DNA of 64,000 nucleotides from Bolinopsis microptera. Its lineage: Eukaryota > Ctenophora > Tentaculata > Lobata > Bolinopsidae. Under the pieces are notes generated by a model. It ran no database searches. It was given only the letters and a program-made list of their open reading frames with translations, and was not told the DNA's origin. Location: assembly GCF_026151205.1 (NCBI RefSeq), contig NC_087082.1, positions 17,639,401 through 17,703,400 on the forward strand, written 5' to 3'. Made by a program: the position numbers and the translations under genes. Positions 15,601 through 39,600 of this stretch are shown one piece after another (within the stretch, counting starts at the first letter, position 1; each line of letters begins with the position of its first letter).

Positions 15601-18600
15601 AACTTTAAACTTACTTGCTGGACAACAAACGCAGCCACGTCGTAATTCTCACAATAACTGCTGTGTAGAAGAGCTGGCAGGATGAGAGAAGGAAAAGAGC
15701 GCAGAGCTTCAGGATAGCTTTACAAATAAGAGGACCAGTAAATAAAATTGTCACAAGTGTTTCTCTCATTCACTTTCGATAAGACACAATGAAAATTCTT
15801 ACTTAACCATACGATTCGGAATTTTTCAACCGTTGAAGAATATCGGGCATTTTTCAGAATTTGGCCGCCAAATTTTGTTAAAGGCCTAACTTAAAATTCT
15901 AATACAAAACTTAAGGTCATGAGGCGATTCTACGTCGATTCTGAAAATTTCATGAAAAAATATTGAAACCCTATTGAGTTCTATTGTTTTGAGCGAAGTC
16001 AGTTTTGCAAATATCGCGAACTGATATATGGGCGATTTTGTTCATTTTTTGCAACTATTTGAACACAGAATCCACAGTTAGGTAGATATTGAGCTGATAA
16101 TCATAGAGAATGTGTAGTATAGGCTTACCTTCCATATAAAGTTGGTTTCATTCAAAAATATTGATATTTGACCAATTTATGGGCCAAAATCGATCAAATT
16201 TGGTGCGTATGCCCAAATATGGTCATATGGTTTTTGGCTCATAACTCAGTCATTTTTTGTCCAATCTTGATGAAAATTCATATACGAGTTCAGGGGACCA
16301 CTAGCTACAAAAAGAGCACCTAAAATTTGGGTTTTGGGCATGTTAAGGGTATTTGGCTAAATTGGGCCTGATTTGGACCAAATATGGGCGTGGCTGCCCC
16401 GCGGGCACCGTTTGGCGGTTGGGGTCCGGGACCCCCTCAAAAGTTCGGTCACCGGTCCTAGTTTGTTGGTTAACTGACTGCTATCTCGAAACTAAGTTTC
16501 ACAAAAAATCAGGGTGAACCCCCCCCCCCCCTTAAGGCATAAGGAAGCATTGTTGAGTTCTGAAACCAAGTTTAATCGATTTCTCGTGCAATTTTAGGTT
16601 AGGAGTGATCATCAAAATAAATTTTGAACAAAGTCGATATTTTGGTAAATTTCTAGCTTTCTGTCAGAAAATAAATCTTCATTCTATTAGGGGTAATTGG
16701 ATGTAACTACAGTACAGCTGTACTTACACCCACTTTCACAAGCATGCAAGCTCACCTGGTCCAAAGAGCGGGAAACGGAGAACGAGCTCTGGTGACGTCA
16801 TAGTCACGTGACCTCAGGCTCATAATCACGTGACCTCAGACCCAATCAATTGGGTTCTGGCCTGTTCAGCCCCCTGTCACCCGATCTTGAGGTGACGTAC
16901 GACAACTCGTTAACCCGATCGATGTCTGGAGGGCTGCAAATTTTCACATGCCAAACTCACAACGGTTTTTCGGAGTTGTGCGAGATGAAGACACATAGAG
17001 GCCGCAGAATTATGAGGACTACCAGATCCTGGTGGAACCTAAGCGATCCATGATATCACGACAGGCCCTAGTGGAACAGGAATGTAAAAACACGAGATTA
17101 GATCAGGAATATGAGTTAAGTTAGATTGGTAAGTCTCGGATACTTTCAAAGAAAAAGTATCATAGACTTAAAACGTATTATAGACTTAATTAAGTCACTG
17201 TGACGTTCGAGCACATAGATGTGATAGGTGCTTTGTTTTACACAGCGGAGAAAGATGTGTAGCATTATCTCGCCGAATATTTGCAGTTAATATAATTATT
17301 TTCTGAAATGTTTACAAATTTTTCAGGGGCATACCCAATACCCATTTACTCCACTGCCTTTTAGACTCTTAAAACACTTTGAGAAGTTGTTTGTAATTGA
17401 AATGTATTGAAACAAGAATCTTCAAATTCAAATATATATCCTAAGATTTACACACCTAAAATCCAAAAATGTATCCTTAACAAGAAACAATTACTATTTT
17501 TAATGGTCTTGCCCACTCTTAATTAAACTAGACGAAAATAATCTCATACTCAAACTTTAAAATTCCAGAAATACCAACATTCCAATGTCTCACAGCACAA
17601 GCCAGTACCAACATTCCAATATCTCACAGCACAAGCCAGTACGAGGTATGAACTGGGGAGGAGCTGCCATATCTAACGCTACCTGGTCAGGTCCCAAACT
17701 GTGTGACCTTCTCAACCACCTCGGCTGGGATGAGGAGAAGTACCCTGCTGTCAAACACGTCTGGGCTGACGGTTCGTACATTTAATTAGCTTTTAATTAG
17801 CTTTAATTAGCTTTTAACTAGCTTTTAAAATGTTTAGTTTCAATTTGACTTCATAGTATTTACACTTTTCAGTTTTGTGATATAGATATAGATTAATTTA
17901 TATTTCTGTTAAATATTAACTGCTGTTAATTAAATTTACGATCTTCATACGCCACTTTTGATGTGTAACAACAGTTTTAAAGTAAAAAAACGTCTAAGAC
18001 TTTCTCAAATCATAGGATTCCATAATTATAACGACATTCACAAAAATAACAACAACCAGTTAAGTGTCCACTTAAAACCAAATTATAAAAAGTGGCATTT
18101 TCTGTTTCATTTTAAATCATGTGAAATGCCTTCTGCCGAACAAGCAGTTTCTTAACTTCCTAAGAGTTCCTCTGATATACTTCATGTCTTATTTTTCACC
18201 TGAAATAACATACATAGATTCTTCATGATTGAACTAAAATATATCTTAAATGTTATTGGATTTTTACTCGGCAGAGTGAATAAAGCCCTCTCAGTAAAAA
18301 TTAAGTCCGTCCAAATTATAAATATAGAACAAAAATACCAAACTTACAAGACAAAACTCAATTTCTACCTACCTTATATTATAAGGAATCGATTAGCTGT
18401 AAATCTTTTTATCTGCCCCTCCAATTGTCTCCTCTTTGTATAGAGTATTCATCTGGAGTATCGTACAGACCCTCCACATCGTCATCCCAATCCTCTGTAT
18501 CCTTGTTACCCTCTTCAGCAACACTAGAAATGAGGTTCAGAGACGCCAGAGAGTGTAGCTGCAAGTGGTTGCTGTACGTTTTCTGGAGTTGGTTCTTCTG

Positions 18601-21600
18601 GGGTTGCAATTGAGTGCTGTACGTTTTCTCTAGTTTTTTCTTCTGAGGTTGGAGTTGAGTGCTGTATGTCATCTCTAGTTCTTTCTTATGGGGTTGGAGT
18701 TGAGTGCTGTAAGTCATCTCTAGTTCCTTCTTCTGGGGTTGGTTGTTAGCTAATTTATATATTGGAACATCCTCATCAGGTCCATTAGACTCAATTTGTA
18801 CAGAGAAGCGTTTGTTAAGCGCTGCTTTAAGTGCACCCGCATTTAAGTGAGTCTGCATTTTGGATAGGAGCTCCAAGTGAACACTCTTTCTCTTGTCACC
18901 TTGAGATAGGTTCTGTTCGGATGAAGAAGGTAGGTTGATTGGTTTGTTGTTACTTTGTCGCCTTTTTATGGGCTCCTCAGCTGTCACTAAGAACATTCTT
19001 CCTTGGAACTCTGTTATGTCATCATAGTGGCCTTGACTAAATCTCTCTTCTTCTTCTTCTTTATTTTGAGGTATGGGGATTTTATGCAGGAGAGAATAAG
19101 TCTCTTCCTCTTCTTCTTCATGGTTTCCTGACGAGCTGTTCTTTCTATCAACAGTATCATACATGGGTTCTAACTCTATCCGAGGGCGAGGGGTGACAGG
19201 GGGTTGTTTCTTCTTGTGACCACTACCAGTGCTGAAACGTCTATCCAGCCTAGCATAACTGTACTCAAACTCCTCGTCATCTTCTCTCTGGGTCTCTTCA
19301 TCACCTTCTCCCTGGCTCTCCTCGTCAATCTTGCTACCTTCATCAACTGACATGTTAATCTCGTCATAGAACGGATCAAGTCCGGGTGGTTCCTCTGAAG
19401 TAGACGGTGCAGACTCGCGAGGCTGTAGTCCCAGATGGAGGATCTCTGGTTTCTTCCGGACGGGTGCTTCCTCCGGGGGGATGTCTCCAGGGTTGGAGAG
19501 CAGTCTCTTCATCCGCTGGTAAGAGGATACTATCCCCTTTTTCATCGATAAGACGAACCCGAAACTGCTTAATAGATGCCTGTTCTTTTAATAGATGCGT
19601 TAGGACGGATTGTCTTTCTATCAAGTATGTTGCCTATCACCAGAAGCGATCATCCCAATAATACCTATCACTGTGATGGTTTGAAATCGCAAATAAAACA
19701 GAACGCTACTAATATGGCAACTCCACAATAAAATGTACAAAGAAAAGAACACGTGTACCTATACTACTGAAGATCAAGGGAAGGTACAGAGAAAGTACAA
19801 TCAGTCGGGATCAGGGTTTCATGTTATCTACTCAACGGATTATTTCGTAACATAACTTTGTTCTGATGCTGAGTGGCCGAGTGAATCATCAATACACCCT
19901 TCTAACTTCAAACACGTTACTTGTTGTCAAAAACAAAAGTTGTTATAGATATTATATAAAATGTGATTTGTATATAAAAAGATATTGTAAGTCTCGTGAA
20001 ACTGAAAGGTGAAGCAATCTGCAATTCTAATACAACCTTTCGTATCAGCTATATGTTTCCATAAATTCACTAGCCTTCAGTTTGATATAATATATTTGCT
20101 TATTGGCTGATTTAACATTGTACGACATGGTCCAAGTTTTAAATGTTAGATTATAATTTTTAAGATCCACCTTCTACGGCACACTGTGCCGGGCACAGTT
20201 CCACTTGGCCAGAATTAAAGATGTGATTTTTTGCAAATCGTTTTTCCTGTACAACCCAAAGTAATCAAAATTGATTATAGAAGGTTTTAAGAGGATAAAA
20301 CTTTCATCATCGGTTTTTTAGAATGTCACAACAAGTTACAAGCTTATTAATTTTCAAGAATTATTTTAACAAACAATAGATAACAATAATATGATGTACG
20401 ATACTTGTGACACTCATTAATAATCCAAATCTCAGATAACTAAGAATTAGTCATTTAAAAAAAAATCAAAAACAAAAAAGTCAAGCAGTCTCTCTAATTA
20501 ATGATTATTACAAAATTTCTTGCACGATTTGACGTAAAAAATATCGAAGAAATAAAATAATTAGCAGGCTCTAAAACTGATCAATATGTCTACTTTAATC
20601 TGTATGATTAATTAGATTAATTATTAGTATAATAGATATATTAGCATTAATATACGAAATTATCAAAAATAACGCTCAAACGTTCACTATTACTATATAA
20701 ACTCGAACATATCGTTTTTAGCCGTCAAATGTGTGTTTATTTATAAAGCTAAAACTTGTTACAGGAATAAACCATTACAGGAATAAACCATTACATATCA
20801 AAATCAGTAGTATAGGTAGCAAATCACAAAGATAAATGTTAGTTTGTAAAGGCTTCTTTCTTTCCGAAATTAAATCTGATATAAACCGTCCTTATCATCC
20901 GCATCTTCTTCTAAGATCTATCACTCCGTGTCAGATGGGTTCCTGGAATTATTATCGAAATTATGGAAATTATTCTTTCTGTTCATGACTCTTATAAGCT
21001 TCATACTTATGTCCAAAGACCAACATGTTTAATTGTAGTGAAGTTGTAAACATTAACAGTCCCCTAGTAAAAACATGCTAAATTTATAACCGCGATATTA
21101 TACAAGTCCTACCTCAGTCCCAAGTTCATCTTGAAGCAAATACCCCCATCCTCCCCTGCTTCAAGTTCCTTATCTACCAGTGCTGTTCCTCTTATCACCG
21201 TCAACTCATCTGGTATTTCGTACGGATCCTCCTCACTGCTTTCCTCCTCACTGCTTTCCTCCTCTGGAGTGTTGTCAGGACCTCCACTTCTGTTCAATAC
21301 AGAGTAGCAGTCTTCTTCAGATGGTGTTTTATCTGAACTGGAGTTGATGTGGTTTATCATATTGTACTCCTCATCAGCAGTATCCCTGAAATGTTACAGA
21401 GTTAAAGTTGTTGTTTAGGCTTTAGAACATTGACAATCCTGAATGGATCATCCAGATCTGACATCGCCGCATTAAAGTGATAATTCTACTAAATTTATAA
21501 AACTTAATTGATCTCCCACCTCAGTTCATCTGGAACTTCGTAGATCTTATCTTCACTCCTCAGTGTCTCTGTCTCCTCAGAGTCTCCAATCACAGCGAGC

Positions 21601-24600
21601 TCGTCTGGCACTTGGTACGGATCTTCAACATCCTCACTAACACTTAGCTCCAGAGGTTTGGTGATACGTTTTGATAGGGTCTCCAGCTCTAGATGGGTAC
21701 TATATCTTTGCAGGTTGGAGCAGGTATTCATTGTGGTGTGGTACCGTGGAGCATCTTCTCCTTGTGCAGTTAAACTGATACTTTTATTGTATGGGGGGTT
21801 TGTCAGGTTTTGAACTGATTGCTTGTTCTGGTTGAGCTCTAAAATGCAACTGTTCCGCTTTTTCGATGCCTCCCTTATGTTTCTTTTACGCAGATCTTCT
21901 TTTTCACTTGACATTTTGTTTCCGTGCAGCAGCGAATAATTATTTTCCTCGTTCTCCATGTCAATTATGGCTGCACCCTGGCTTTGCTCGATTGTACTGT
22001 ACTCCCCACTAATTTCAGTACTGGATTGCCCTACGAGAAACTTCAGATTATGAGAAGGTTGCTGGATCGAAGTCTGGTTCAACTGTAGTGTACAACTATA
22101 AGTGGAAAGATCTCCCAAAGATCTTTGTGTAGCCGGTTCAGGATTCCTCAACATTCCATCATCATTTCCAGCTCCACATTGTTTCACTTTGTGTACGACA
22201 ATGTTACTTTGTGCTGCATGAGAATTAATCATTCCTTTGAGCTCTGTCAGATCATCATAATGGCTGTCACTATCTTCATCATCAATCAGATTGCTTGGTT
22301 TAGTGTTCTGAAGAGTGTTCTGAAGAGTGATGACGTCTGAAAAGTTAGCATCCTCTGGGCATGGTGGTTCACTGATCCTAGTCTCAACAACACAGATTGT
22401 GTCGTACGTACCATCTGCTTCAAGATCAGTCTTTGGAGGTGCAGATGGCTCCGATCCCTTGCAACTGCTTGCTTTTTCTAGAATTGTGTCATGGTTAGCT
22501 GGTTTGTATTTATTGTACTGATTGTTTTGGTGCTTTGAAGGATTCTTTATACTAGCTATATCATCATACATATCGTCAGTTTCTGCGTCAGAATATGACT
22601 CAGCAGCTTTTTCTTTACTCTGAAAATGTACACTAATTTTCTTGTCATCTTCAGTGCAAGGAAACGTCTCTTTGACTGTGCAGCGTTTTTGTACTTTATT
22701 CTTTACGATTATAAGCACTATAACAGCAGCGACTAATGCAGATACCGATATTCCTATTACGATCTTCCATTTTTTGGGTCTTTTATCATCCTGGTGACTA
22801 GCATTAGCAATTAATGGATTTACCATATTATTTGATAAAGCCATGTCTGACGAAACTGCCCCTTTCGTATCTTTACCTGTCGTATTCTCTGCTGTTGTGC
22901 TCTTTTCTGTCGCATTTTCTGCTGTTGTGTTCTTTTCTGTCGCATTTTCTGCTGTTGTGCTCTTTTCTGTCGTATTCTCTGCTGTTGTGCTCTTTTCTGT
23001 CGTATTCTCTGCTGTAGTGCTCTTTTCTGTCGTATTCTCTGCTGTTGTGCTCTTTTCTGTCGTATTCTCTGCTGTTGTGCTCTTTTCTGTCGTATTCTCT
23101 GCTGTTGTGCTCTTTTCTGTCGTATTCTCTGCTGTTGTGCTCTTTTCTGTCGCATTTTCTGCTGTTGTGCTCTTTTCTGTCGCATTCCATGCTGTAGTGC
23201 TCTTTTCTGTCGTATTTTCTGCTGTTGCGATCCTATCTGTCGTATTATTTCCAATACATTCGAGTCGGTGATTTATCTCTTTACGGAGGTTCTGATAAAT
23301 GTTCCAATCTTCATTGTACACGTCCCACGCGTTCTTCTCATTTCTTTGCAATGCAATGATCGCACGATTCCCAAAGTCATAATTAGACTTGCACTTTTCA
23401 TCTGTTAGCTGAAGGAATGCCTGAACAAACTCCCTTTGTATTATCATCCAGTCTACCTGAACACCTATCATGGCTCTGATACTTCTGTCATTTGACGTTA
23501 CGTCCAGTTGTTGCAGATTTATTATTTTGTTTAATTCCTTTTCAAGCTGATCCGCCATTACGTTATCTGATAAGAGTGTTTCAACTTTCTTTACGATGTT
23601 CTTCTGATCTTCAATCATCTCATTTGCTCTCAACCTCAAAGTGTTCTTTCTGTCGGTAGCAATAACGAGCTGACCACTACCACCATCTTTTGATCCACCA
23701 TTATCTTTTCGTTCATAGCTCTCAGTCACTATTACTAAAACTAAAAACCACAAAAATGGACAACTCATACGAAACAAAATCAAAGCCCGGATAAAAATTA
23801 GCGCGCCTCGGCCTCAATTAACCTTGAAGGTAGAACTGCTTCCGTAAAAGAAAGACGTGTAAATGTGTAAAGGTACTTTACTACTGAACCTTTCCCTAGT
23901 ATTTCATTTATAAAAGTATTGAACATGTTGTACTTATCAACTCATCGTCAAATTTCGATCCTGCGAGTTAATATGTTACTTGTTACCAACTCCTCAACGT
24001 AAGTTCGATATATTATTATTATTAAAGCATTTGGCCCAGTCAAAAACGTTTCAGTTGTATATCTTTTACGGTTTTTGCGGAAAGTCGCGTTAAAGTTGAT
24101 GCCGTTGTGTCAGTAAAGGGGTACGGAACCCTCCATATTTATCGTCTCGCTTTATATATAGTAAGATAGTAAGATTATTAAATACCTTGTATAGAAAATA
24201 TAAAGTGTTCAGACTGTGAGTCTGTGGTTCAGTATTTGACTACTGAGTCAGGTTCATATTATTTGTTCTTTGTTCACAGATCTGAGAAGCGCAGTGATCC
24301 GAGACACACTGCTTTTGATAACTGCACTCAAAATAGGACAAAGGTATAAGAAGACTTTTTTTTTGAGAACAAAAGATGAGAATGAAATAATTTCTTTGAA
24401 ATAAAATGGCAATCACAAATTGTGATTCACAAATTGTGATTCACAATTATACAATCACCTCTAAAATAGTGGAAGACAATAGATATTCGTTGCACGAGCA
24501 GAGTTTCATTTTGAAAGTTCAGATAAAACATTCCCACACGACACATTAATAAACAATTAAAATGCTAATTCATACGTAATAATTCATATTTCCTGCCCTA

Positions 24601-27600
24601 ACTCAAATCAATAAAAGTGATCTAACAAAAAATTCTCTACATTGTCCCTTGTTACAGAAACATATTTCAACGTTCAACTTTACGTAAGTTGTTGAGAATG
24701 CAATGGAGTGCTGTTTGCTCACTTTTTTAGTGTAATAGATACACACTCACAGATTAGATTTCACCTGAAACATGATTATAATATTTCATTATTTTGTGAT
24801 TAAATCATATCCATTAGGCCGACGATTAATTACACAGATCTCACTCTGATATAAAAACCTAAGTTTAAAACATATTTCACAGCTGGGCAATTCGCGATTC
24901 CTCATTTGTATTGTCCTAACTTACCTCCAAGTTAAGTTTTAGCTCCCCCTAGCTTCTCAATTCTTCCTCTATTTGGTATTGATCTTCAGCACCCTCTCCT
25001 TCACCTAAAGCGTCACCGTTACCGTCTGTTGTATCCCAGTCTAGCCCTAACAATACTGTTGTCATCATGTTCCGAGTAGATTGTTTCGTCAGGGTCTGAT
25101 TCAAGTCCAGATTGCTGCTGTATATTGAAGATCCTTCTTTGGGTGGCGTGTCACTCTTTATCAGATTAATTTCCCCTCTTTCATCCAGGTCGGTATCTTT
25201 AGTTACAATCTTTTTCTTGTCTGAATCCTCAGTAACTGCCTCCTCGCTTAAATAAAGTTTATGATCTGGACTAGATGTGCTGCACTTTTCCTCCGATGTG
25301 CTGCACTTTTCCTCAGATGTGCTGCACTTTTCCTCAAATGTGCTGCACTTTTCCTCAGATGTGCTGCACTTTTCCTCAGATGTGCTGCACTTTTCCTCAG
25401 ATGTGCTGTTTTGGTGCTTTGAAGGATTCTTCATACTAGCTATGTCATCATATTCATACATATCAGACTCGGTTTCATCGTCAGAATATGACTCAGCAGC
25501 TTTTTCTTTACTTGGACAATGTACGTCTATTTTCTTGTCAGCTACGCTGATTGACATGCTTGTGATGTAATCGTTTCGGTTCTCTGACTTTTTCATGGAA
25601 TCGTCAATGGTTATTGGATCGCTCTTACTGTTTTTCGGATCTTCAGTGCAAGGCAACGTCTCTTTGACAGTGAAGCGTTTCTGTGTTTTAATCTTAACGA
25701 TTATAAACACTATAACAGCAGCAATTAATACAGATACCGATATTCCTATTACGATCTTCAATTTTTTGGACCTTCTTTCATCTTTAAGATCTTGACGACT
25801 AGCATTATTTATCACTTGCAGTGCATTTACGCTTCCCATCTCTGTCGGAGCCATATGTACTGTATCGTTTTCTGTTCTATCCATTCCTTGTAAATTCTCG
25901 ACATGTTTGCTATCCGGATATTGTTCTTTAACACAGTTATGGTTTAAACGATGTTTTATCTCTTTGCGAAGGTTCTGATAGATTTTCCATCTTTTTTCAT
26001 ACACGTTCCAAGGGTTCTCATTTGGCGATGAAATGAAATCTGTATTCTCAAAGTCATTAGACTTGCACTTTTCATCTGTTAGCTCAAGGAATGCCTGAAC
26101 AACCTCCCGTTGTATTATCATCCAGTCTACCTGAACACCTATCATGGCTCTGATACTTCTGTCATTTGACGTTATGTTCGGTTGGTGCAGATTCTTTATT
26201 TTGTCTAATTCCTTTTCAAGCTGATTTTCCATTACGTTATCTGATAAGAGTGTTTCAACTTTCTTTACGGTGTTCTTCTGATCTTCAATCATCTCATTTG
26301 CTCTCAACCTCAAAGTGTTCCTTTTAATATCGAGCTGACTACTAACATTATCTTTTCGTTCATAGCTCTCAGTCACTATTACTAAAGCAAAAAACCACAA
26401 AAGTGTTCTACTCATACGAAACGAAATCAAAGCTCGGATAAAAATTAGCGCTCCTCAATTTATGTTGAAGGTACAACTGCTTCCATAAAAGAAAGACGTG
26501 CAAATGTGTAAAGATTCGTTACTACTGAACCTTTACCTAGTATTTCATTTATAAAAGTATTGAACATGCTGTACTTATCGTTAAATTTCGATCTTGCGAG
26601 TTAATATGTTACTTGTTACTAAATTCTCAACGTAAGTTCGATATAATAACTTACCCATCTTAATTAGAAGCTCAGTAGATAGTGCTACATATGAGGGATC
26701 CTCTTGCGCAATATGAATTCCCCCTCAGCATGTTAGTGGCTTATTGCTACTATTAAGTAGTAATAGCACATTGTGTAGAAAATATAAAGTGTTCAGACTG
26801 TGAGTCTGTGGTTCAGTATTTAACTACTGAGTCAGGTTCATATTATTTGTTCTTTGTTCACAGAACTAAGGAGCGCAGTGATCCGAGACACACTGCTTTT
26901 GATAACTGCACTAAAGATAGGACAAAGGTATAAGAAGATTTGAGAACAAAAAATGAGAATGAAATAATTTCTTTGAAATAATAATGGCAATCATTACATA
27001 GAATCATCTCTAAAACAATTAAATGCTCTATGGATATTCGTTACACGAGCGGAGATAAATCGTTTCCATATTATAATCAACAATCTAATTTTTTCTTCAT
27101 ACTGCAAGTTTTTATATCTGCCCTGACGCAAATCGATAAATGTGATCCAACAAAAAATTCTTTACATTGTCCCTTGTTACAGAAACATATTTCAACGTTC
27201 AACTTTTCGTAAGTTGTTGAGAATGCAAAGGAGTGCTGTTTGCTCACTTCTTTATGGTAATAGATACACACAGAGATTACATGCTGATTTTGGCCTGAAA
27301 CATAGTTTTGACATTCATTATTTGTGATTAAATCATTATATCCATTAGGTCGACGATTAATTACACAGATCTCACTCTGATATAAAAACCTAAGTTTGAA
27401 ACGTAGTTCACAGCTCTGCAATTCGCAATTCCTCATTTGTATTGTCTTTACTTACCTCCAAGTGAAGTTTTAGCCTCCCCTAGCTTCTCAATTCTCCCTC
27501 GATTTGGTATTGATCTTCAGCACCCTCTCCTTCACCTAAATCGTCACGGTTACCGTCTGTTGTATCACAGTCTAGCCCAGAGTCTGTTTCTAACAATACT

Positions 27601-30600
27601 GTCGTCATCATGTTCCGAGTAGGTTGGTTCATCAGGGTCTGATTCAAGTCCAGATTGCAACTGTATCTTTTGCTGATCGGTCTCTCTTTAGGTGGTCTTT
27701 TTATCATAAGCGTGTTTAGTGCTCCTTTTTCTAGATCTTTCTCCGTGGATTTGCTGCTCCTGTTTAAGACAGTGTAGCTTCCCTCCGCATAGTCACCATT
27801 AGCTGCTGCTTCACTTGACTCTAGCTTTACTTTATCAATCGTGCTGTTATGGATAGAAGTCATGTTCCGAGTAGGTTGGTTCGTCAGGGTCTGATTCAAG
27901 TCCAGATTACTGCTGTATATTGAAGATCCTTCTTTGGGTGGCGTGTCACTCTTTATCAGATTAATTTCCCCTCTTCTATCCAGGTCAGTATCTTTAGGTA
28001 CAATCTTTTTCTTGTCTGACTCCTCAGTAACTGCTTCCTCGCTTAAATCAAGTTTATCTTGACTAGATGTGCTGCACTTTTCCTCAGATGTGCTGTACTT
28101 TTCCTCAAATGTGCTGCACTTTCCTTCAGATGTGCTGCACTTTTCCTCAGATGTGCTACACTTTTCCTCAGATGTGCTGCACTTTTCCTCAGATGTGCTG
28201 CACTTTTCCTCAGATGTGCTGCACTTTTCCTCAGATGTGCTGCACTTTTCCTCAGATGTGCTGCACTTTTCCTCAGATGTGCTGCACTTTTCCTCAGATG
28301 TGCTGTACTTTTCCTCAGATGTGCTGCACTTTTCCTCAGATGTGCTGCACTTTTCCTCAGATGTGCTGTACTTTTCCTCAGATGTGCTGCACTTTTCCTC
28401 AGATGTGCTGCACTTTTCCTCAGATGTGCTGCACTTTTCCTCAGATGTGCTGTACTTTTCGTCAGATGTGCTGTTTTGGTGCTTTGAAGGATTCTTCAAA
28501 CTAGCTATGTCATCATATTCATACATATCGGACTTGGTTTCATCGTCAGAATATGTTTCAGCAGCTTTTTCTTTACTCGGACAATGTACGTCTATTTTCT
28601 TGTCAGCTACGCTGATTGACATGCTCGTGATGTAATGGTTTCGGTTCTCTGACTTTTTCATGGATTCGTCTATGGTTACTGGATTTTCCCTACTATTTTT
28701 CGGATTTTCAGTGCAAGGAAACGTCTCTTTGACAGTGCAGCGTTTCTGCGCTTTAATCTTAACGATTATAAACACTATAACAGCAGCAATTAATGCAGAT
28801 ACCGATATTCCTATTACGATCTTCAATTTTTTGGACCTTCTTTCATCTTTAAGATCTTGACGACTAGCATTATTTATCACTTGCAGTGAATCTACGATTT
28901 CCATCTCTGTGGGAGCCATCTGTACTGTATCGTTTTCTGTTCTATCCATTCCTTGTAAATTCTCGACATGTTTGCTATCCGGATATTGTTCTTTAACACA
29001 TTTATAGTTTAAACGATGTTTTATCTCTTTGCGAAGGTTCTGATAGATTTTCCATCTTTTTTCATACACGTTCCAAGGGTTCTCATTTGGCGATGGAATG
29101 AAATCTATATTCTCAAAGTCATTAGACTTACACTCATCTGTTAGCTCAAGGAATGCCTGAACAACCTCCCTTTGTCTTATCATCCAGTCTACCTGAACAC
29201 CTATCATGGCTCTGATACTTCTGTCATTTGACGTTACGTCCAGTTGTTGCAGATTCTTTATTTTGTCTAATTCCTTTTCAAGCTGATTCGCCATTACGTT
29301 ATCTGATAAGAGTGTTTCAACTTTCGTTACAATGTTCTTCTGATCTCCAATCATCTCATTTGCTCTCAACCTCAAAGTGTTCCTTGCGATATCGAGCTGA
29401 CCACTACCATTATCTTCTCGTTCATAGCTCTCAGTCACTATTACTAAAGCAAAAAACCACAAAAGTGTACTACTCATACGAAACGAAATCAAAGCCCGGA
29501 TAAAAATTATCGTTCCTCAGTTAACGTTGAAGGTACAACTGCTTCCGTAAAATAAAGACGTGTAAATGTGTAAAGGTACGTTACTGCTGAACCTTTACCT
29601 AGTATTTCATTTATAAAAGTATTGAACATGCTGTACTTATCGTTAAATTTCGATCTTGCGAGTTAATATGTTACTTGTTACTAAATTCTCAAGGTAAGTT
29701 CGATATAATTAGTTACACATCTTAACTAGAAGCTCAGTAGATAGTGCTACATATGAGGGAGTCTCTTGCGCAATATGAATTCCCCAGCATGTTAGTGAAT
29801 AGTGGCTTATTACTACTATTAGAAAATACCTCGTGTAGAAAATGTAAATTGTTCAGACTGTCAGTCTGTGGTTCAGTATTTAACTACTGAGTAAGGTTTA
29901 TATTATTTGTATGTTCTTTGTTCACAGAACTGAGAAGCGCAGTGATCCGAGACACACTGCTTTTGATAACTGCACTCAAAATAGGACAAAGGTATAAGAC
30001 AATTTGAGAACAAAAAATGAGAATGAAATAATTTCTTTGAAATAATAATGGCAATCATAGAATCATCTCTAAAACAATTAAATACTCTATGGATATTCGT
30101 TACACGAGCGGAGATAAATCGTTCCCGTATTATAATCAACAATCTAATTTTTTCTTCATACTGCAAGTTTTTATTTCTGCCCTGACACAAATCGATAAAT
30201 GTGATCCAACAAAAATTTCTCTACATTGTCCCTTGTTACAGAAACATATTTCAACATTCAACTTTTCGTAAGTTGTTGAGAATGCAAAGGAGTGCTGTTT
30301 GCTCACTTCTTTATCGTAATAGATACACACAGAGATTACATGCTGATTTTTGCCTGAAACATGATTTTGACATTCATTATTTTGTGATTAAATCATTATA
30401 TCCATTAGGTCGACGATTATTTACACAGATCTCACTCTGATATAAAAACCTAAGTTTGAAACATATTTCACAGCTCTGCAATTCGCAATTCTTCATTTGT
30501 ATTGTCCTTACTTACCTCCAACTCTCCAAGTGAAGTTGTAGCCTCCCCCTAGCTTCTCAATTCTCCCTCTATTTGGTATTGATCTTCAGCACCCTCTCCT

Positions 30601-33600
30601 TCACCTAAAGCGTCACTGTTACTGTCTGTTGTATCATAGTCTAGTCCAGAGTCTGTTTCTAGCAAAACTGTCGTCATCATGTTCCGAGTAGGTTGGTTCG
30701 TCAGGGTCTGATTCAAGTCCAGATTGCAACTGTATCTTTTGCTGATCGGTCTCTCTTTAGGCGGTCGTTTTATCATAAGCGTGTTTAATACTCCTTTTTT
30801 TAGATCTTTCTCTGTGGATTTGCTGTTCCTGTTTAAGACAGTGTAGCTTCCCTCCGCACAGTCATCATTAGCTGCTGCTTCACTTGACTCTAGCTTTACT
30901 TTATCAATCGTGCTGTACTCTTCCACGAGGATCTCCTCGATAGAAGTCATGTTCCGAGTAGGTTGGTTCGTCAGGGTCTGATTCAAGTCCAGATTACTGC
31001 TGTATATTGAAGATCCTTCTTTGGGTGGCGTGTCACTCGTTATCAGATTCATTTCCCCTGTTTTATCCAGGTCGGTATCTTTAGGTACAATCCTGTTCTT
31101 GTCTGACTCCTCAGTAACTGCTTCCTCGCTTAAATCAAGTTTATCTTGACTAGATGTGCTGCACTTTTCCTCAGATGTGCTGCACTTTTCCTCAGATGTG
31201 CTGCACTTTTCCTCAGATGTGCTGCACTTTTCCTCAAATGTGCTGTACTTTTCCTCAGATGTGCTGCAATTTTCCTCAGATGTGCTGCACTTTTCCTCAG
31301 ATGTGCTGCACTTTTCCTCAAATGTGCTGCACTTTTCCTCAGATGTGTTGCACTTTTCCTCAAATGTGTTGTCATCTTTGTCTGCAACAGAGGTCTTTGT
31401 TGATCCCTGCTTAGGTTGTAATTTCACTATAGCTAGATGACAGCTGTATTGTGTTTCTAGCGGCCTCTCTTCCTCCCCTTTTAAGTCAGTATCTACTTTC
31501 GAATAATTTGTATCTTCTTTCTTTAGATCTTGATCTTTGTCAGCTTGTATTTTGTGTAGGTTCCTCTGATGTTCTAAGATTTTGAGAGGGGTTTTGGGAT
31601 AGATTTCATCGTAGAGAGGTTCTCCCTCCTCGTTATCTTCAGAAATCCAGACTTCATATTTTCTGAGAGGAGAAGTTGATGATTTTTTGTCTAGTCGCTG
31701 TATCAAGGTTTGGTTCAGATCTACATTGCAACTGTATTGTCTTTCCAGTCCGGGTCTTTCTTTTGATTGTCTGGTTAGGTCCAGTCTGGTTGTTGCAAAT
31801 GTCGAGTACCTTCCATCTTCTTCCTTATCAACTGATCCTAATGCGCCTCTTTGCTTGGCTTTACTAATTGTGTCATACTCACAGTTAGTTTCATCCGCTG
31901 GTACGACAGTATTTCTGTCCACGGGTATGACTGTTGTATAAGTGTAACTCACTTTACTGCTACATGGTTTGTGAAGGACACAACAGTTTCCTTCCTCATC
32001 TGTTGCCTGATCTTTGTTGGACAGAGTATTGCACTGTAAATCACTTCCATTTTTTCCGCCAGTTTTAGGAGGTTCTTTAATGTCTAGTTCTTCGTAGAGA
32101 GGACACTCTTCATCTTCTTTGGCATTTTGCTTTGCATTTTCAACAGACACTACATTTTTAAAGTTAACTTTCTTCGTTGGGGGTCTTTTGCCTTTGTTAC
32201 GGCTCCCAGACGACGCATCTCCTACTCCAGTAGGTTCTGCACTGGGTGCCGCTGATTTAGGTGGAACACTTTGATGACGAGAGGACCGTTTGACTATGTT
32301 TATGTGATACCTTGATCTCAGGATAAAGTAAAGAGCGAGAGACAATAATATGAAGATGGTCAATGTGGTCACTGAGGTTGCCATTATTATTGGTAATTTG
32401 TCTGTCGAAACTGAAGATGATGCGTTGTGATCCCTTTCTTCTGCCATGTTGCTTGCATCTCCATCACAGATGATCTCATTCAGTTTCAGCACGTTTGCTG
32501 TGAACTGAAGATAGAAGTTCCAACATTTCTCATAATCGGTCCATGGAAAATTCGGTGTATCATCTTTACAATCTTTGAAGTCACTGTCATTGAGGTAGTT
32601 CTGGCTGATATTGAGATAAAGAACATTTTCAACTGTACGATGTTGATAGATCATCCAGTCTACGTGCTTTTTCATCACAGCGACCAAATTTCTTTTGTCG
32701 GAATTTTTTATTGTCTGTATTTTTGCCCTCATTTCCTCCCTTTTATTTATTAAAATGCGCAAGGTGCTATTTTGCTCGTCTATCAAAGCTGCCCAAGCAA
32801 TTATCTTATTTTGGATGCCTAATATCTCTTCTGTCCTGTCGATGAGAGCACCTTTACCATTGTCTAAAGAAGAAGCAAAACTCACCAGCACCACTAAAAG
32901 CAAGGCCACAACAAACATTCGGTTACAATTACACATATTTACGAAACGTATACGGAGTAGCTCGAACTGCTTCCTCTGCCCCGACTGAGAGTTATGTTGT
33001 AATGTTGGTCACTCAGCTCATTATACAGTTTGACTTGCTGTACCCTGCTTAGTTCAACAGAGTTATACACATGAAGTGACATCATTATAGTGGTTTACTG
33101 GTATCCTACTCATTTACTACTAACTCTGTGATTCTGTAGTAAACTACGTGACGGTACGATGACACCCTGACTGCTGACATTAGCAGCTTTAGATTGTAGT
33201 GTGGTATTCTTCTGTTTCTGGATGTCACTGCGTTTACTATTGTTTAATAACAGCGAGAGGGTATAAACTGGGTGTAAAGTGAATTGTATGGAAATTGGAA
33301 ATCGGGATATTCAGAATACGGTATCAAAACTTGGCCAAAGAGTGTGATATATATTGAATTTTTAGTAAGAATCTCGTATGTCAATGACACTTGATAATTT
33401 GTAAAGTTCTAAGCTGAAAAAAGCTGAATAGTCAATTGTTATATTGATTGAGCCTGTCAATAGAATGCACGGAGTAAATTTTTGAATACCTATTTTAAAG
33501 AATTTTTAACAATTTAGGTAGTGTTCGTAATTTCCTTGTTATTTGTGATACTTTTATAGAAGAAATGATAGGAACAAAGTTAGGCAAAACTGTAAAAATC

Positions 33601-36600
33601 ATTTAAAAACATCCAAAATTCAATCCATTTAATTATTTATCACACAAGCGAAATAATACTATAATACGAAGTATGGCATCAGATTTATAAAAAGTAAGCA
33701 CACGATACTGTCTTTAATGATTGACATTCTCTATCAAATATCTGTTCCTATCTCAATCAAATCAAAAAAATATATGATTTACATCGTCCCTTTTTAATTA
33801 TGCATAGCAAAACTTCAATTTCCAAATTGTTGTAGGTTTATTGGGATTCAAATGAGTGCTGTTTGCTTTCTTCTGTATAGTAATCAACTCGCAGATCCGA
33901 TTTTGATATTCGCCTGAAACATGAACGGTTCATTACTATGTGATCAAATTTCAAACTTAAATTTCAACTGATTTATGAACTTATCTACTGAAGTTCCAAA
34001 CAAATTTTACACTCTAGTCTCCACTCAAACAATGTTGATGATTGTTACTGATTCAAATTATCCCTACTTACCTTCTGTTAAACTCTGACATAACTTCTGC
34101 TCAATTCGTCTGGTCTCCAGCACCCTCCTCCTCAATTAAAGCGTCACCGTCTGTTGTATCACAGTCTAGTCCGGTGTCTGTTTCTAGCAAAACTCTCGTT
34201 ATCATGTTCAAAGTAGGTTGGTTCGTCAGGGTCTGATTCAAGTCCAGATTGCAACTGTATCTTTTGCTGATCGGTCTCTCTTTAGGCGGTCGTGTTATCA
34301 TAAGCGTGTTAAGTACTCCTGTTTCTATATCTTTCTCTGTGGATTTACTGTTCCTGTTTAAGACTGCGTAGCTTCCCTCCGCATAGTCACCATTAGCTGC
34401 TGCTTCACTTGACTCTAGCTTTACTTTATCAATCGTGCTGTACTCTTCCACGAGGATCTCCTCTATAGAAGTCCTCATCAATTCTTGGTCAGGTTGCAGT
34501 TTCAAGGTGTGGTTCAGTGCTAGATTACAAGTGTATTGTGTTTCTAGTGGTTTCTTGTCTGCTATTAATATTCCAGTCTCGTTCATTAATGATAGACTAG
34601 ACTGTCCTACTTCTAATTCTCCCTTCTCATCCACAGCACTACCACCTTCTTCAGTCAGACAGAATGTGTCGTACTCTCCCTCAATCTCCCTCCCCTCTTC
34701 TGGTGCTACTTCTTCAGCCAGGCAGAACGTGTCGTACTCTCCCTCCTCCTCCTCTGCAGGCTGATCTTCGTGAGCTAGAGTGTTGTACACATTGCTCTGA
34801 TCTTGTTTGGGAGGTTCTTTGAGGCACATTTCGTCGTAGAGAGGATCCTCTTCTTGGTCATGGGTGTAATCAACTGTGTTGGTTAATGGTCCTGTCTTCT
34901 GACTTCCGCTCGCTATCCCTTCAACTCCAGTAGGTTCTGTTTCTCTTTTAGCAGAAAGACTTTTGAGCCGAAAAGATCGTCTGACTATGCGGTATCTTGA
35001 TCTCATGATGAGGTAGAGGGCGAGAGAGGCTATGAGGATGAGAAATACGGGAACGGAGATTCCCAGTATGATAACTAATGATTTATCAAATATATTATCT
35101 GTCGAATCATCTTCTGAGCTATCTTCGTCGTCCTCATCGTTTGAATCATTTTCATCGTCACTATCCTCTGTTTCACTGTCATCTGTTCCATTTTTATCAT
35201 TCATTTGCTCGAGTTGCGAGATACAGCAGCTCTGATAATAATCCCAATATGTAACGTATGTAGACCACATATCTTGGCTCCATTTCGATAAATCAGAGGG
35301 AAGTTCAGCCAAAACCTTCTGATAGCAAGTTGAAATATTGCTACTATGATTTTGTGAAAGATTTTCTATATGTTGGCACTGTTCTTTCATATATCCTTGG
35401 TGATCCAACATAATCTCTCCTGCCCTTCTTAGCTGCCTTATCTGGGTTCCACCTATGAGATATCCATTATCCAGATATATCTTTGTAGCCCCTATCTTAG
35501 TCCTTGATGTGTAGATTCCACTGTTCATGTCTTTTTCTTTTGTAAGGTAGATTAAATTGTCTTGTGCCAAAATCATCTCTTTTGAATTTATCTTTAATAC
35601 ATCTTTTGCATCATCAAAGGTTATTACTGCCGATCGACCGATAATTGTCTCAGCTGCAATTACCATAATTATAAACAAGAAGTTTATAAGCATTTCGTAA
35701 TACTAACACTGTAACCAGCAAACAAACAGAGAAAGTGCAATGTAACGTATTCCAACATGCTATCCTTTTTACTCATCTCACAGTTCAGTTTGGGATCACA
35801 TGGTGTCTACCTGGTTACTCCGACAACACTGCACCCTGATGTACTAACCCTGGTGTATTTATACTTCTCAATACATGACACGTTGTGTGGGCAGTATTGT
35901 TAGTGATTACTCACGTTGTTATGGTGATGTGTTACTCACTCACGTTGTTATGTAATCTACTTCAGCATTACTTCATCTGATTGCAGGTAACTGTGTTACG
36001 TGGGGTGTACACTGTTTTGTATTATGAACACTGATAGTAATTATTATATTTTTCGGTTGATTTGTAATTTAAGATGTACAGGTACCAAGCACTAAGTCGG
36101 AAATAAAACAGGCATTTTTCAAATTCAAATGTAATCAACCTACTGCTTGAGTATTCACAAATAAAATATTTCTCATCTAAATTGGGACGGGAAATATCGG
36201 GAATGTAAGATTTAAATTGGTCAGTGCTAATGTTGATTTGCCTTGCGTGCCCAGTTATAATGCAGTTATTAAATTGAAATTAGAATCGTTATTGATATCT
36301 AGAGAAACCGCAATATTTCATTATTGCTCCCTCAAATGTAATGTAAATTAATATAAATTGCTACAATCATGTATAAATAATAGGTACACAAAACAATCTT
36401 TTGGAATTTCATCAGTTCTTTTCATACGTAAATCAAGGAAAATTAAGAACTGTCTCTTGAACACATGATAATTTCTACATGAGAGTTAATACTCTAATAC
36501 TCTAATAATACTCTAATGTTTGTAGAGCTAAAAAGAGCTTCTTCTCGTATTATGTTGTTGATTTGCACTGATAGAGTGTTGCATCAGTCACAGCCGTTCA

Positions 36601-39600
36601 TCTGGAAGAAAGATCGTCTTACTACGCGATATCTTGATCTCATGATAAAGTAAAGAGTTAGAGACGTTACGAGGATGAAACATATCGGAACGGAGATTCC
36701 AAGTATCATTGATAATTTATCTGATTTTGGCCCTTTATCCGTATCACGGATATAATCTTTGAGCTCTGTTTCTTTGAAATGAAGATACAGATCCCAACTC
36801 TTATCATAGTTGATCCAGGTACCTTGCTCATCTGTTATCTTATCTCTGAAGTTCTGCCATTTCTCAGCATATCTCAGATACATATCCCTGTCCTGATCCC
36901 CTGATATGTTTTTGATGTGATCATTTTGATGTATCATCCAAAGTATTTGCTTCTTCATCGCGATTCTGATAAAGGAATTGTTGGTTCTATCGTTATTGGC
37001 TCCCTCAATCATCTTCGCCATTTCATCTCCCTTTGATCTTAGTTGGTTCAAATTGATCCTCGATGCATCCAACATTTTCTTTTGGATATCCAAGATTTCT
37101 TCCGTCCTGTTGACGAGTGTTTCTTTAGCATTTTCTAAAGAAATAGAACTAAAAACATATCTACAGACTGAAATTCTCGCCAGAACCACAAATAGAAAGC
37201 TTAGAACTAACATCCAGTTTCAACTAGTAGACACACATACAATACTCGAATACAATACGGTATAACAAGAACTACCCTATCTTTAGACTAAAGACTAATG
37301 ATGTAATCTTACTGTTATACAGTGTAACACCCCTGTTTTCAGTACTTTCAAATTAAATCACACCCAGGTTTAGATTACGGACCAGATGGAACTAGCTACG
37401 GTGCTTCAATCCTGATAGAAAAGGCCATGGATCCCAGACAAGATGTTATACTTGCTCTAAAAATGAACGGTGAGAACCTGTTAATGTACACTTAATACCC
37501 ATGTATACGAAGTAGTGGGTATAGTGTGAAGGTAGACTAATCCATATTCATATTTTACCAACACAGTTATGTAACCCAGGAAGATACAACGTGTCTATTT
37601 AGTATAATTACTAATCATATTTTAATTAACTAATTAATTGGTTTTACAGGAGAGGAGCTGCCACGAGACCACGGTTACCCAGTCAGACTGGTAGCCCCGG
37701 GAGTGGTGGGAGCTCGTAACGTGAAGTGGGTAGGCAGTATTACTCTGAGTGAGGTGGAGAGTTTTAGTCACTGGCAGAGGAGAGACTACAAGGGTGGGTA
37801 ATGAGTGTAGTGTTGGTAAAGGTGTAGTAAAGGTGTAGTAAAGGTGTAGTAAAGGTGTAGTAAAGGTGTAGTGTTGGTAAAGGTGTAGTAAAGGTGTAGT
37901 AAAGGTGTAGTGTTGGTAAAGGTGTAGTAAAGGTGTAGTAAAGGTGTAGTGTTGGTAAAGGTGTAGTAAAGGTGTAGTGTTGGTAAAGGTGTAGTAAAGG
38001 TAAAGGTGTAGTAAAGGTGTAGTAAAGGTGTAGTAAAGGTGTAGTAAAGGTGTAGTAAAGGTGTAGTAAAGGTGTAGTAAAGGTGTAGTAAAGGTGTAGT
38101 AAAGGTGTAGTGTTGGTAAAGGTGTAGTAAATGTGTAGTATTGGTAAAGGTGTAGTAAGGTGTAGTGTTGGTTAAGGTGTAGTAAAGGTGTAGTAAAGTG
38201 TAGTAAGGTGTAGTAAGGGTGTAGTAAAGGTGTAGTAAAGGTGTAGTAAAGGTGTAGTAAAGGTGTAGTAAAGGTGTAGTAAAGGTGTAGTGTTGGTAAA
38301 GGTGTAGTAAATGTGTAGTTTAGTAAGGTTGTAGTGTTGGTAAAGGTGTTTGTAGTAAGGTGTAGTGTTGGTAAAGGTGTAGTAAAGGTGTAGTAAAGGT
38401 GTAGTAAAGGTGTAGTGTTGGTAAAGGTGTAGTCAAGGTGTAGTAAAGGTGTAGTAAAGGTGTAGTAAAGGTGTAGTATTGGTAAAGGTGTAGTAAAGGT
38501 GTAGTAAAGGTGTAGTATTGGTAAAGGTGTAGTAAAGGTGTAGTAAAGGTGTAGTGTTGGTAAAGGTGTAGTAAAGGTGTAGTAAAGGTGTAGCATTGGT
38601 GTAGTATTGGTAAAGGTGTAGTAAAGGTGTAGTAAAGGTGTAGTGTTGGTAAAGGTGTAGTAAAGGTGTAGTAAAGGTGTAGCATTGGTTAAGGTGTAGT
38701 AAGGTGTAGTGTTGGTTAAGGTGTAGTAAAGGTGTAGTAAAGGTGTAGTAAAGGTGTAGTAAGGGTGTAGTAAAGGTGTAGTAAAGGTGTAGTATTGGTA
38801 AAGGTGTAGTAAGGTGTAGTGTTGGTTAAGGTGTAGTAAGTATTACATTGATAGACAGTTGTATACAGGTGTGTTACAATTGTAAAAACTGCAGCTGTGT
38901 GTTTGGTAAGGTTGAGTGCATTGTTGAGTTAAAGGTGTAGTCTATTTGGTAAATTCGTAATAGGTTGTATTTTCGTGTTAATTGTTGTATAAAGTGTTAT
39001 AAGTTTAGTAAGTTGTAGTAACATGTTAGTATTGGAAAGTGTAGTATAAAGGTTAATAGTATTGGTTAGTTATAATAGGTAGTAGTACAGGTTAAGTAAA
39101 AGTTGTAGTAAAAGGTTGTGTTATGTAAAGTGTAGTGAATGTTGTAGTTAAAGGTGTAGTATTGGTAAAGGAGTAGATGAAGTGTTAGTGATTGTTAAGG
39201 TGTTAGTAAAGGTGTAGTAAAGGTGTAGTAAGGTGTAGTAAAGGTGTAGTAAGGGTTGTAGTAAAGGTGTAGTAAGGGTGTAGTAAAGGTGTAGTAAAGG
39301 TGTAGTGTTGGTAAAGGTGTAGTGAATGTGTAGTAAAGGTGTAGTATTGGTAAAGGTGTAGTAAGGTGTAGTGTTGGTTAAGGTGTAGTAAAGGTGTAGT
39401 AAAGGTGTAGTAAAGGTGCAGTAAAGGTGTAGTAAAAGTGTAGTAAGGTGTAGTGTTGGTAAAGGTGTGTAGTAAAGGTGTGGAGTCTGGTGGGGAGGTG
39501 AGTCATATTGTTATTCTTGACACGTGATAGTGATTCTGGAGTTGATTGATTTATAGCTGTCACGTAAGTAATAATAATATACCTCATCTCTCCACCAGAA

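Follow-up and report, generated by a model that had tools for sequence, protein, structure and literature searches.

The genome of the ctenophore Bolinopsis microptera (264.65 Mb) was examined over a window of 64,000 nucleotides (contig NC_087082.1, contig positions 17639401-17703400; coordinates below are those of the window), which holds a cluster of seven long open frames between 18409 and 37219. All seven lie on the minus strand, span 211-819 codons and contain no internal stops. The plus strand on both sides carries sequence matching Oxidored_molyb (PF00174), at 17561-17782 (E 1.8e-8) on one side and in exons at 37373-37468 (weaker, under the cut-off) and 37652-37795 (E 4e-14) on the other, consistent with these being exons of SUOX. 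The original prediction, made by a model from the sequence alone, placed seven minus-strand genes inside one SUOX intron, and the open frames and flanking exons confirm this arrangement.

Genes 2-6 each encode, within one open frame, a signal-like segment, an ectodomain (head), a membrane helix and a long acidic tail, and this shared order, proposed originally for a tandem family with helical heads, is borne out by hydropathy and by the motifs described below. Signal segments were judged from hydropathy rather than with a dedicated predictor: genes 2-7 show an N-terminal hydrophobic segment resembling a signal peptide and one membrane helix, preceded by 168-335 residues (signal included), and gene 1 shows neither feature. 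Gene 7 also belongs to the head family, with a tail of 18 residues, and gene 1 is tail-like only, so the family as first outlined needs adjusting at both ends.

Gene 1 (frame 18409-19587, 392 codons; 18409..19545 from the first Met, 378 residues) encodes a tail-like protein that has no head and in which hydropathy finds no membrane helix or other hydrophobic segment. It contains YDEI, YSLL, YDDI, YDTP and a repeated YSTQLQP, and is weakly similar (E about 0.005) to the tails of gene 2 and of the database protein P0005. Gene 2 (frame 21504-23813, 769 codons) is spliced. Its first exon (21520..23768) encodes the signal-like segment, head, a Thr/Asn-rich stalk, the membrane helix (22704-22763) and part of the tail. 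The NCBI model LOC134823186 [Bolinopsis microptera], an uncharacterized protein referred to here as P0002, equals the frame from Met66 to residue 763 and beyond that point passes through a junction at 21520 into an exon bounded by AG/GT and then into a short final one. On the basis of P0002 and the AG/GT junctions, exon 2 lies at 21113..21385 and adds further tail with YNMI, YSVL and YEIP; exon 3, placed from P0002, lies at 20921..20942 and holds the last codons, NPSDTE, and the stop. The region of the signal-like segment (23619-23768) is outside P0002, which begins 50 residues after the opening Met (residue 16), and the deposited model would consequently not be recognised as a receptor. The stalk is encoded by a coding minisatellite with a 30-bp unit (22877..23246, 12.3 copies, with N-x-T sequons); because of it, the membrane helix of gene 2 comes only after 335 residues (signal included), and the original estimate of a 150-200-residue ectodomain fails for this gene.

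Gene 3 (frame 24949-26454, 501 codons; 24949..26415) has a head, a membrane helix at 25696-25755 and a tail of 248 residues containing a coding minisatellite with a 21-bp unit encoding CSTSEEK (25273..25408, 6.5 copies). Gene 4 (frame 27480-29516, 678 codons; 27480..29477) has a head 88-91% identical to that of gene 3, a membrane helix at 28761-28820 and a 426-residue tail, with 19.5 coding copies of a 21-bp unit at 28065..28473. A block between two copies of LDLNQTL is kept in gene 4 (27480-28064) and missing from gene 3 (24949-25272); the tail of P0001, another database protein, has the same short form as gene 3. Gene 5 (frame 30549-33008, 819 codons; 30549..32936) has a head, a membrane helix at 32319-32390 and a 589-residue tail that is chimeric, being gene-6-like near the membrane and gene-3/4-like past its coding 21-bp minisatellite (31152..31368, 10.3 copies), which marks the boundary of similarity with gene 4. 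Gene 6 (frame 34101-35702, 533 codons; 34101..35693) has the most diverged head, a membrane helix at 35004-35072 and a 300-residue tail. Gene 7 (frame 36584-37219, 211 codons; 36584..37213) consists of a head, a membrane helix (36641-36709) and a short basic tail that recurs in the database protein P0003.

Three motifs had been noted in the heads, and a motif search established that all are real and that one is lost from gene 6. L-x-x-[RN]-x-x-E-[MI]-[IL]-x-x-Q and W-x-x-Y-x-x-x-W-x-x-Y are present in six of the seven genes (2-7), and W-M-I-x-Q in five (2-5 and 7); their positions keep the same order across genes 2-7. In an alignment of 11 rows that includes P0001 and P0003-P0006, the positions E, Q, M, W, Y, W, Y are invariant. 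Head-only profiles, each compared against 60 shuffles, link the gene 7 group with gene 5 (probability 97.9%, E 4e-13), the genes 2-4 group with gene 5 (93.6%, E 2e-7) and the genes 2-4 group with the gene 7 group (37%, E 3.5e-4). Matches of the gene 6 group to the other three are weak (7-18%, E 0.001-0.005; scores of 22.6-25.6 against shuffled maxima of 19.1-23.9), so the membership of gene 6 rests mainly on motif order, similarity in and next to the membrane helix, and a shared tail. AlphaFold models of gene 7 (mean predicted local distance difference test score, pLDDT, 64.8; predicted template modelling score, pTM, 0.51) and gene 3 (mean pLDDT 56.3; pTM 0.50) are helical, and the heads in them are all-helical except for isolated bridge residues, at only moderate model confidence. 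The head is read here as roughly 135 helical residues, to which a variable stalk is added, with a sequence that diverges around a few fixed Trp, Tyr, Glu, Gln and Met positions.

The head had not been recognised as immunoglobulin (Ig), lectin, leucine-rich repeat or any other known fold, and this stands after a search for a strong profile match in Pfam, NCBIfam and PDB sequences. Neither Pfam with the seven proteins nor NCBIfam with five of them gave a match above cut-off; six heads scanned alone against Pfam gave none below E 0.001 and no Ig match; PDB sequences, queried with gene 3 and the head profile, returned 0 matches at E ≤ 1. With the weak gene 7 model as query, 0 of 176 Foldseek matches reached E ≤ 0.001, and a second fold list for this model contained engineered bundles, lyases, She2p and others within the helical background, with no credible relative. 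Pfam, NCBIfam and PADLOC, the last applied to four of the seven proteins, yielded nothing beyond matches that fell below cut-off or were of low complexity, and these were rejected: the repeat of gene 2 matched HC2 (E 9.7e-5; 23 bits where 40 are required), membrane stretches gave an MSP1a-type match, and gene 3 matched PD-T4-6 (E 2.4e-4, from a library without curated cut-offs). The proposal of a coherent family with no recognised fold is supported.

Three protein searches against 5.8 billion sequences scored 1,039, 3,408 and 7,996 candidates and returned two relatives each: P0002, which is gene 2, and five ENA proteins close to genes of the window. P0001 and P0004 have gene-2-like heads, P0003 has a head 91% identical to that of gene 7, and P0005 and P0006 are gene 6-like. 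P0001 and P0006 lie on contigs of equal length (25,154 bases), probably one and the same, which would point to a cluster there as well. Four queries were run against the genome (gene 7, the whole of gene 6 and the heads of genes 3 and 5), with the best candidates scored; they returned only this locus besides one rejected match on C1. That match (E 0.006) spans 51 residues at the membrane stretch, its frame contains no W-x-x-Y-x-x-x-W, and its neighbours look Ig-like by eye. The tandem family has so far been found only in B. microptera and in the ENA contigs.

Heads and tails of the same genes differ sharply in their divergence. Synonymous divergence (dS) and the ratio of nonsynonymous to synonymous divergence (dN/dS) were calculated by the Nei-Gojobori method on segments chosen by hand, as were those of the gene 5/6 tract below. 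The heads of genes 4 and 5 are 27% identical (dS 2.6), and three blocks of their tails are 90-91% identical (dS 0.025-0.117), with the whole tails matching at 273 of 418 positions (65%, repeats kept). The heads of genes 5 and 6 are likewise 27% identical, with dS saturated, and share a tail block that is 85% identical (dS 0.072). At the nucleotide level, a tract of about 350 bp in the tails of gene 5 (30602..30956) and gene 6 (34133..34487) is 87-98% identical in 60-bp steps, lying between sequences that are 39-61% identical just before it and 44-73% identical after it (coding end and 3' flank). Constraint by itself would explain a tract this similar between dissimilar neighbours less well than gene conversion does.

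A direct duplication of 3,051 bp (25273-28284 and 28338-31371, 93% identical) unites one gene's head, the spacer and the end of the tail of the gene that follows. It stops at the CSTSEEK arrays (21-bp unit) of genes 3, 4 and 5, as would be expected if unequal crossing-over at these arrays had yielded the joined copy. The head of P0001 is 73% identical to that of gene 2 and 63% and 62% identical to those of genes 3 and 4, whereas its tail is 77-79% identical to those of genes 3 and 4 and 48% identical to that of gene 2 once CSTSEEK-type repeats are removed (77% for gene 3, 63% for gene 4 and 48% for gene 2 with repeats kept). Followed in successive segments, P0001 is most similar, in broad outline, to gene 2, then gene 4, gene 2 again and gene 5, and past the array to genes 3, 4 and 5; it reads as a mosaic of gene-2-, gene-4- and gene-5-like segments. 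P0005 and P0006, possibly from different species, have heads 63% and tails 94% identical. By these comparisons heads and tails have different histories, a feature beyond those originally described; tails appear to have been swapped between copies, and the repeat arrays sit, as the sequence is read here, at module boundaries.

We lean slightly towards reading the cluster as a recombining tandem family of single-pass cell-surface receptors whose tails would dock SH2 proteins. One competing account, which we judge unlikely, is that these are young, weakly constrained, lineage-specific genes of no important function whose tails have been homogenised only through the minisatellites. The variable array copy numbers (6.5, 19.5 and 10.3) would fit it, and so would the substitution patterns. 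For young head pairs dN/dS is 0.69 (genes 3-4), 0.73 (genes 2-3) and 0.53 (genes 2-4); for the STID tail block it is 0.33 (genes 4-5), 0.36 (genes 4-6) and about 1.1 (genes 5-6); for the mid-tail block it is 0.63 (genes 3-4) and, on 2 and 1 synonymous changes, 1.6 (genes 3-5) and 1.7 (genes 4-5); and for the membrane segment of genes 3-4 it is 1.25 on 1 synonymous change. These values demonstrate no strong constraint, and the counts of changes are too small to separate relaxed from positive selection. The original prediction had named relaxed dN/dS in decaying copies as evidence that would count against it; what is found is mixed, with open frames and head pairs at 0.53-0.73 on one side and tail and membrane segments near or above 1, on few changes, on the other. 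Against weak constraint stand the seven stop-free frames of 211-819 codons, the core head residues kept despite saturated synonymous sites, the annotated spliced model of gene 2, and the short-tailed relative of gene 7 elsewhere with its 91% identical head.

The receptor reading draws on the tyrosines of the tails, which were counted with gene 1 taken whole as tail, gene 2 spliced and gene 7 left out, against 2,000 shuffles. The six tails hold 81 Tyr. Position +3 is hydrophobic or Pro for 36 of them (shuffle mean 18.2, maximum 33), and 27 of these also have at least two acidic residues among the preceding five (shuffle mean 4.72, maximum 13). Taken singly, genes 1, 2, 5 and 6 are enriched in this combined acidic YxxPhi pattern (p ≤ 0.0085). 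Yxx[ILV] occurs 5, 7, 1, 2, 7 and 4 times in the tails of genes 1 to 6 (26 sites in total), and YxxP once in gene 1, three times in gene 2 and nowhere in genes 3-6. The abundance of YxxI/L and YxxP motifs first reported for the tails therefore holds variably for Yxx[ILV], at one to seven per tail, and only in genes 1 and 2 for YxxP. Nine sites have the form Y[DE][DE][ILM], which resembles pYEEI, the ligand of the Src SH2 domain.

YxxPhi is also the form of AP-2 sorting signals, and the 26 Yxx[ILV] sites could instead mark the proteins as endocytic cargo or scavenger receptors. We think this very unlikely: endocytic sorting signals commonly need one site, and up to seven sites per tail, an acidic context and forms such as YxxP and YDEI would be unusual for them. 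Tyrosine-rich tails are found too in LAT/PAG and Cas-type YxxP scaffolds, which have a long tail with several possible SH2-docking tyrosines. The ctenophore proteins share with these the long multi-tyrosine tail and, in genes 1 and 2, YxxP, and they might be transmembrane scaffolds or adhesion proteins. The head would then serve for anchorage or spacing, and other receptors would drive the tail as a docking platform of the LAT/PAG/Cas kind. Multivalent tyrosine sites on long tails would suit such a role, as would gene 1, a tail without a head, and tails are better conserved than heads in four of five pairs of a window gene and a near relative outside it (gene 6 with P0005 and with P0006, genes 3 and 4 with P0001, but not gene 2 with P0001). 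In LAT-type adaptors, however, the ectodomain is very short. The ctenophore proteins have a signal-like segment and then a large ectodomain, together 168-335 residues ahead of the membrane helix, and their heads keep invariant E, Q, M, W and Y across very diverged copies, which suggests a folded function. We consider the scaffold account rather unlikely.

For the receptor reading, domains of the kind that would read phosphorylated tails are encoded in the genome. SH2 gave 33 exon-level matches above the cut-off, a number that probably includes copies and split exons. On contig C102 one locus combines an SH3 exon with a pair of adjacent SH2 exons and with exons for a tyrosine kinase; the kinase exon with the catalytic loop has Abl as its nearest PDB chain, followed by Src (best 60 of 388 matches). 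With SH2 domains and an SH3-SH2-kinase arrangement, the genome has the machinery for such reading. The paired SH2 exons (C102:25462-26101, minus strand; L023:6963-7602) resemble each other and lie between the SH3 and kinase exons, with a similar pair on contig C107, and are possibly alternative exons of a Src/Abl-type kinase. Eph receptor tyrosine kinases are stated to occur in ctenophores (PMC6485061).

Several results weigh against tyrosine-signalling receptors. Taken by themselves, the tails of genes 3 and 4 are not enriched (p 0.34 and 0.44), and the six tails share homologous blocks, so their motif counts are not independent. The immunoreceptor tyrosine-based activation motif (ITAM), sought as Yxx[LI]-x(6-12)-Yxx[LI], occurs in 0 of 6 tails and the hemITAM also in 0 of 6; the strict pattern of the inhibitory motif (ITIM) occurs just twice, once next to the membrane. 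Tail Tyr are in 0 of 6 comparisons conserved above other residues (8/11 against 191/242, for example), a point that would also favour weak constraint. The two structure models, at mean pLDDT 64.8 and 56.3, are weak, and several tail or membrane segments have dN/dS near or above 1. The lineage-specific signalling family originally proposed is partly supported. Its relatives in the searches are only gene 2 itself and five ENA proteins close in sequence to window genes; a signalling role is favoured by motif enrichment over shuffles and by SH2 and SH3-SH2-kinase exons in the genome, and disfavoured by the lack of ITAM and hemITAM in the tails and by tyrosines that are not extra conserved.

If the proteins are such receptors, their heads would bind a ligand or the surface of another cell, and this contact would cluster them. 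A Src/Abl-type kinase would then phosphorylate the acidic YxxPhi sites, at which SH2 proteins would dock. Gene 5 and spliced gene 2 would be multivalent signallers and genes 3 and 4 weak ones; gene 7, a head-only form, would be a decoy or a partner without a tail, and gene 1 possibly a soluble scaffold. A swapped tail would alter the signalling output of the head to which it was joined.

Other features lie close to the cluster. Upstream of it, in the SUOX region, an element of 5.4 kb (11653-17073) with inverted ends of 399 nt (98%) and 145 nt (96%) is by its form a DNA transposon. A 1.6-kb minisatellite of GTAAAGGTGTA type (37816-39454) adjoins the SUOX exon at 37652-37795, and GC skew is extreme (0.74) at 38-40 kb. 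A rhodopsin-type G-protein-coupled receptor is encoded in a single frame on the minus strand at 40481-41434 (PF00001, E 2.3e-13).

In Botryllus, the Fester co-receptors (FcoR) at the fuhc locus form a polygenic cluster with related short-tailed partners encoded alongside, and the Alr candidate allorecognition genes of Hydractinia are mentioned in the same source (PMC12065747). Like FcoR, genes 2-6 form a cluster at one locus, with short-tailed gene 7 next to them, and encode a signal-like segment, an ectodomain, a single membrane helix and a long tail that carries Yxx[ILV]. FcoR ectodomains contain V/C2 Ig and sushi domains, whereas the ctenophore heads are predicted to be all-helical and have no Pfam match; FcoR tails carry canonical ITIM or hemITAM; hemITAM occurs in 0 of 6 ctenophore tails, and the strict ITIM pattern is present twice, one instance being juxtamembrane. 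The polymorphism and function of FcoR have been studied, and the ctenophore family is known here from sequence. Hydractinia Alr proteins are single-pass, encoded in a tandem cluster, and combine tyrosine-motif tails with Ig-superfamily-like ectodomains. The ctenophore family, too, comes from an early-branching animal and consists of tandem single-pass proteins whose tails bear tyrosine motifs; it differs in its predicted helical heads without a Pfam Ig match; the three protein searches returned no Alr-type relative. Vertebrate paired receptors of the KIR/CEACAM type have Ig domains and canonical ITIM or ITAM. Related heads on different tails, and long-tailed beside tail-less members, are common to them and the ctenophore family, in which, however, no Ig domain or ITAM was found.

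Our literature search found no ctenophore ITIM paper and, among titles and abstract beginnings of the best 10 of 148 matches, no description of such a ctenophore receptor family. A survey of ctenophore immune receptors searched for 20 Pfam domains (PMC11797021) and would accordingly not list a family that lacks one. The polygenic, single-pass, tyrosine-tailed plan is already known from FcoR and Alr; the head is unrecognised. That ctenophores join the reported pattern of unrelated recognition receptors with tyrosine-motif signalling, with coding minisatellites as points of recombination between head and tail, is a proposal we put forward tentatively and consider doubtful. If the proteins are indeed tyrosine-signalling receptors, ctenophores would add another unrelated head and a compact test case at a single locus, and tail-swapping would show how an animal re-wires the output of its receptors.

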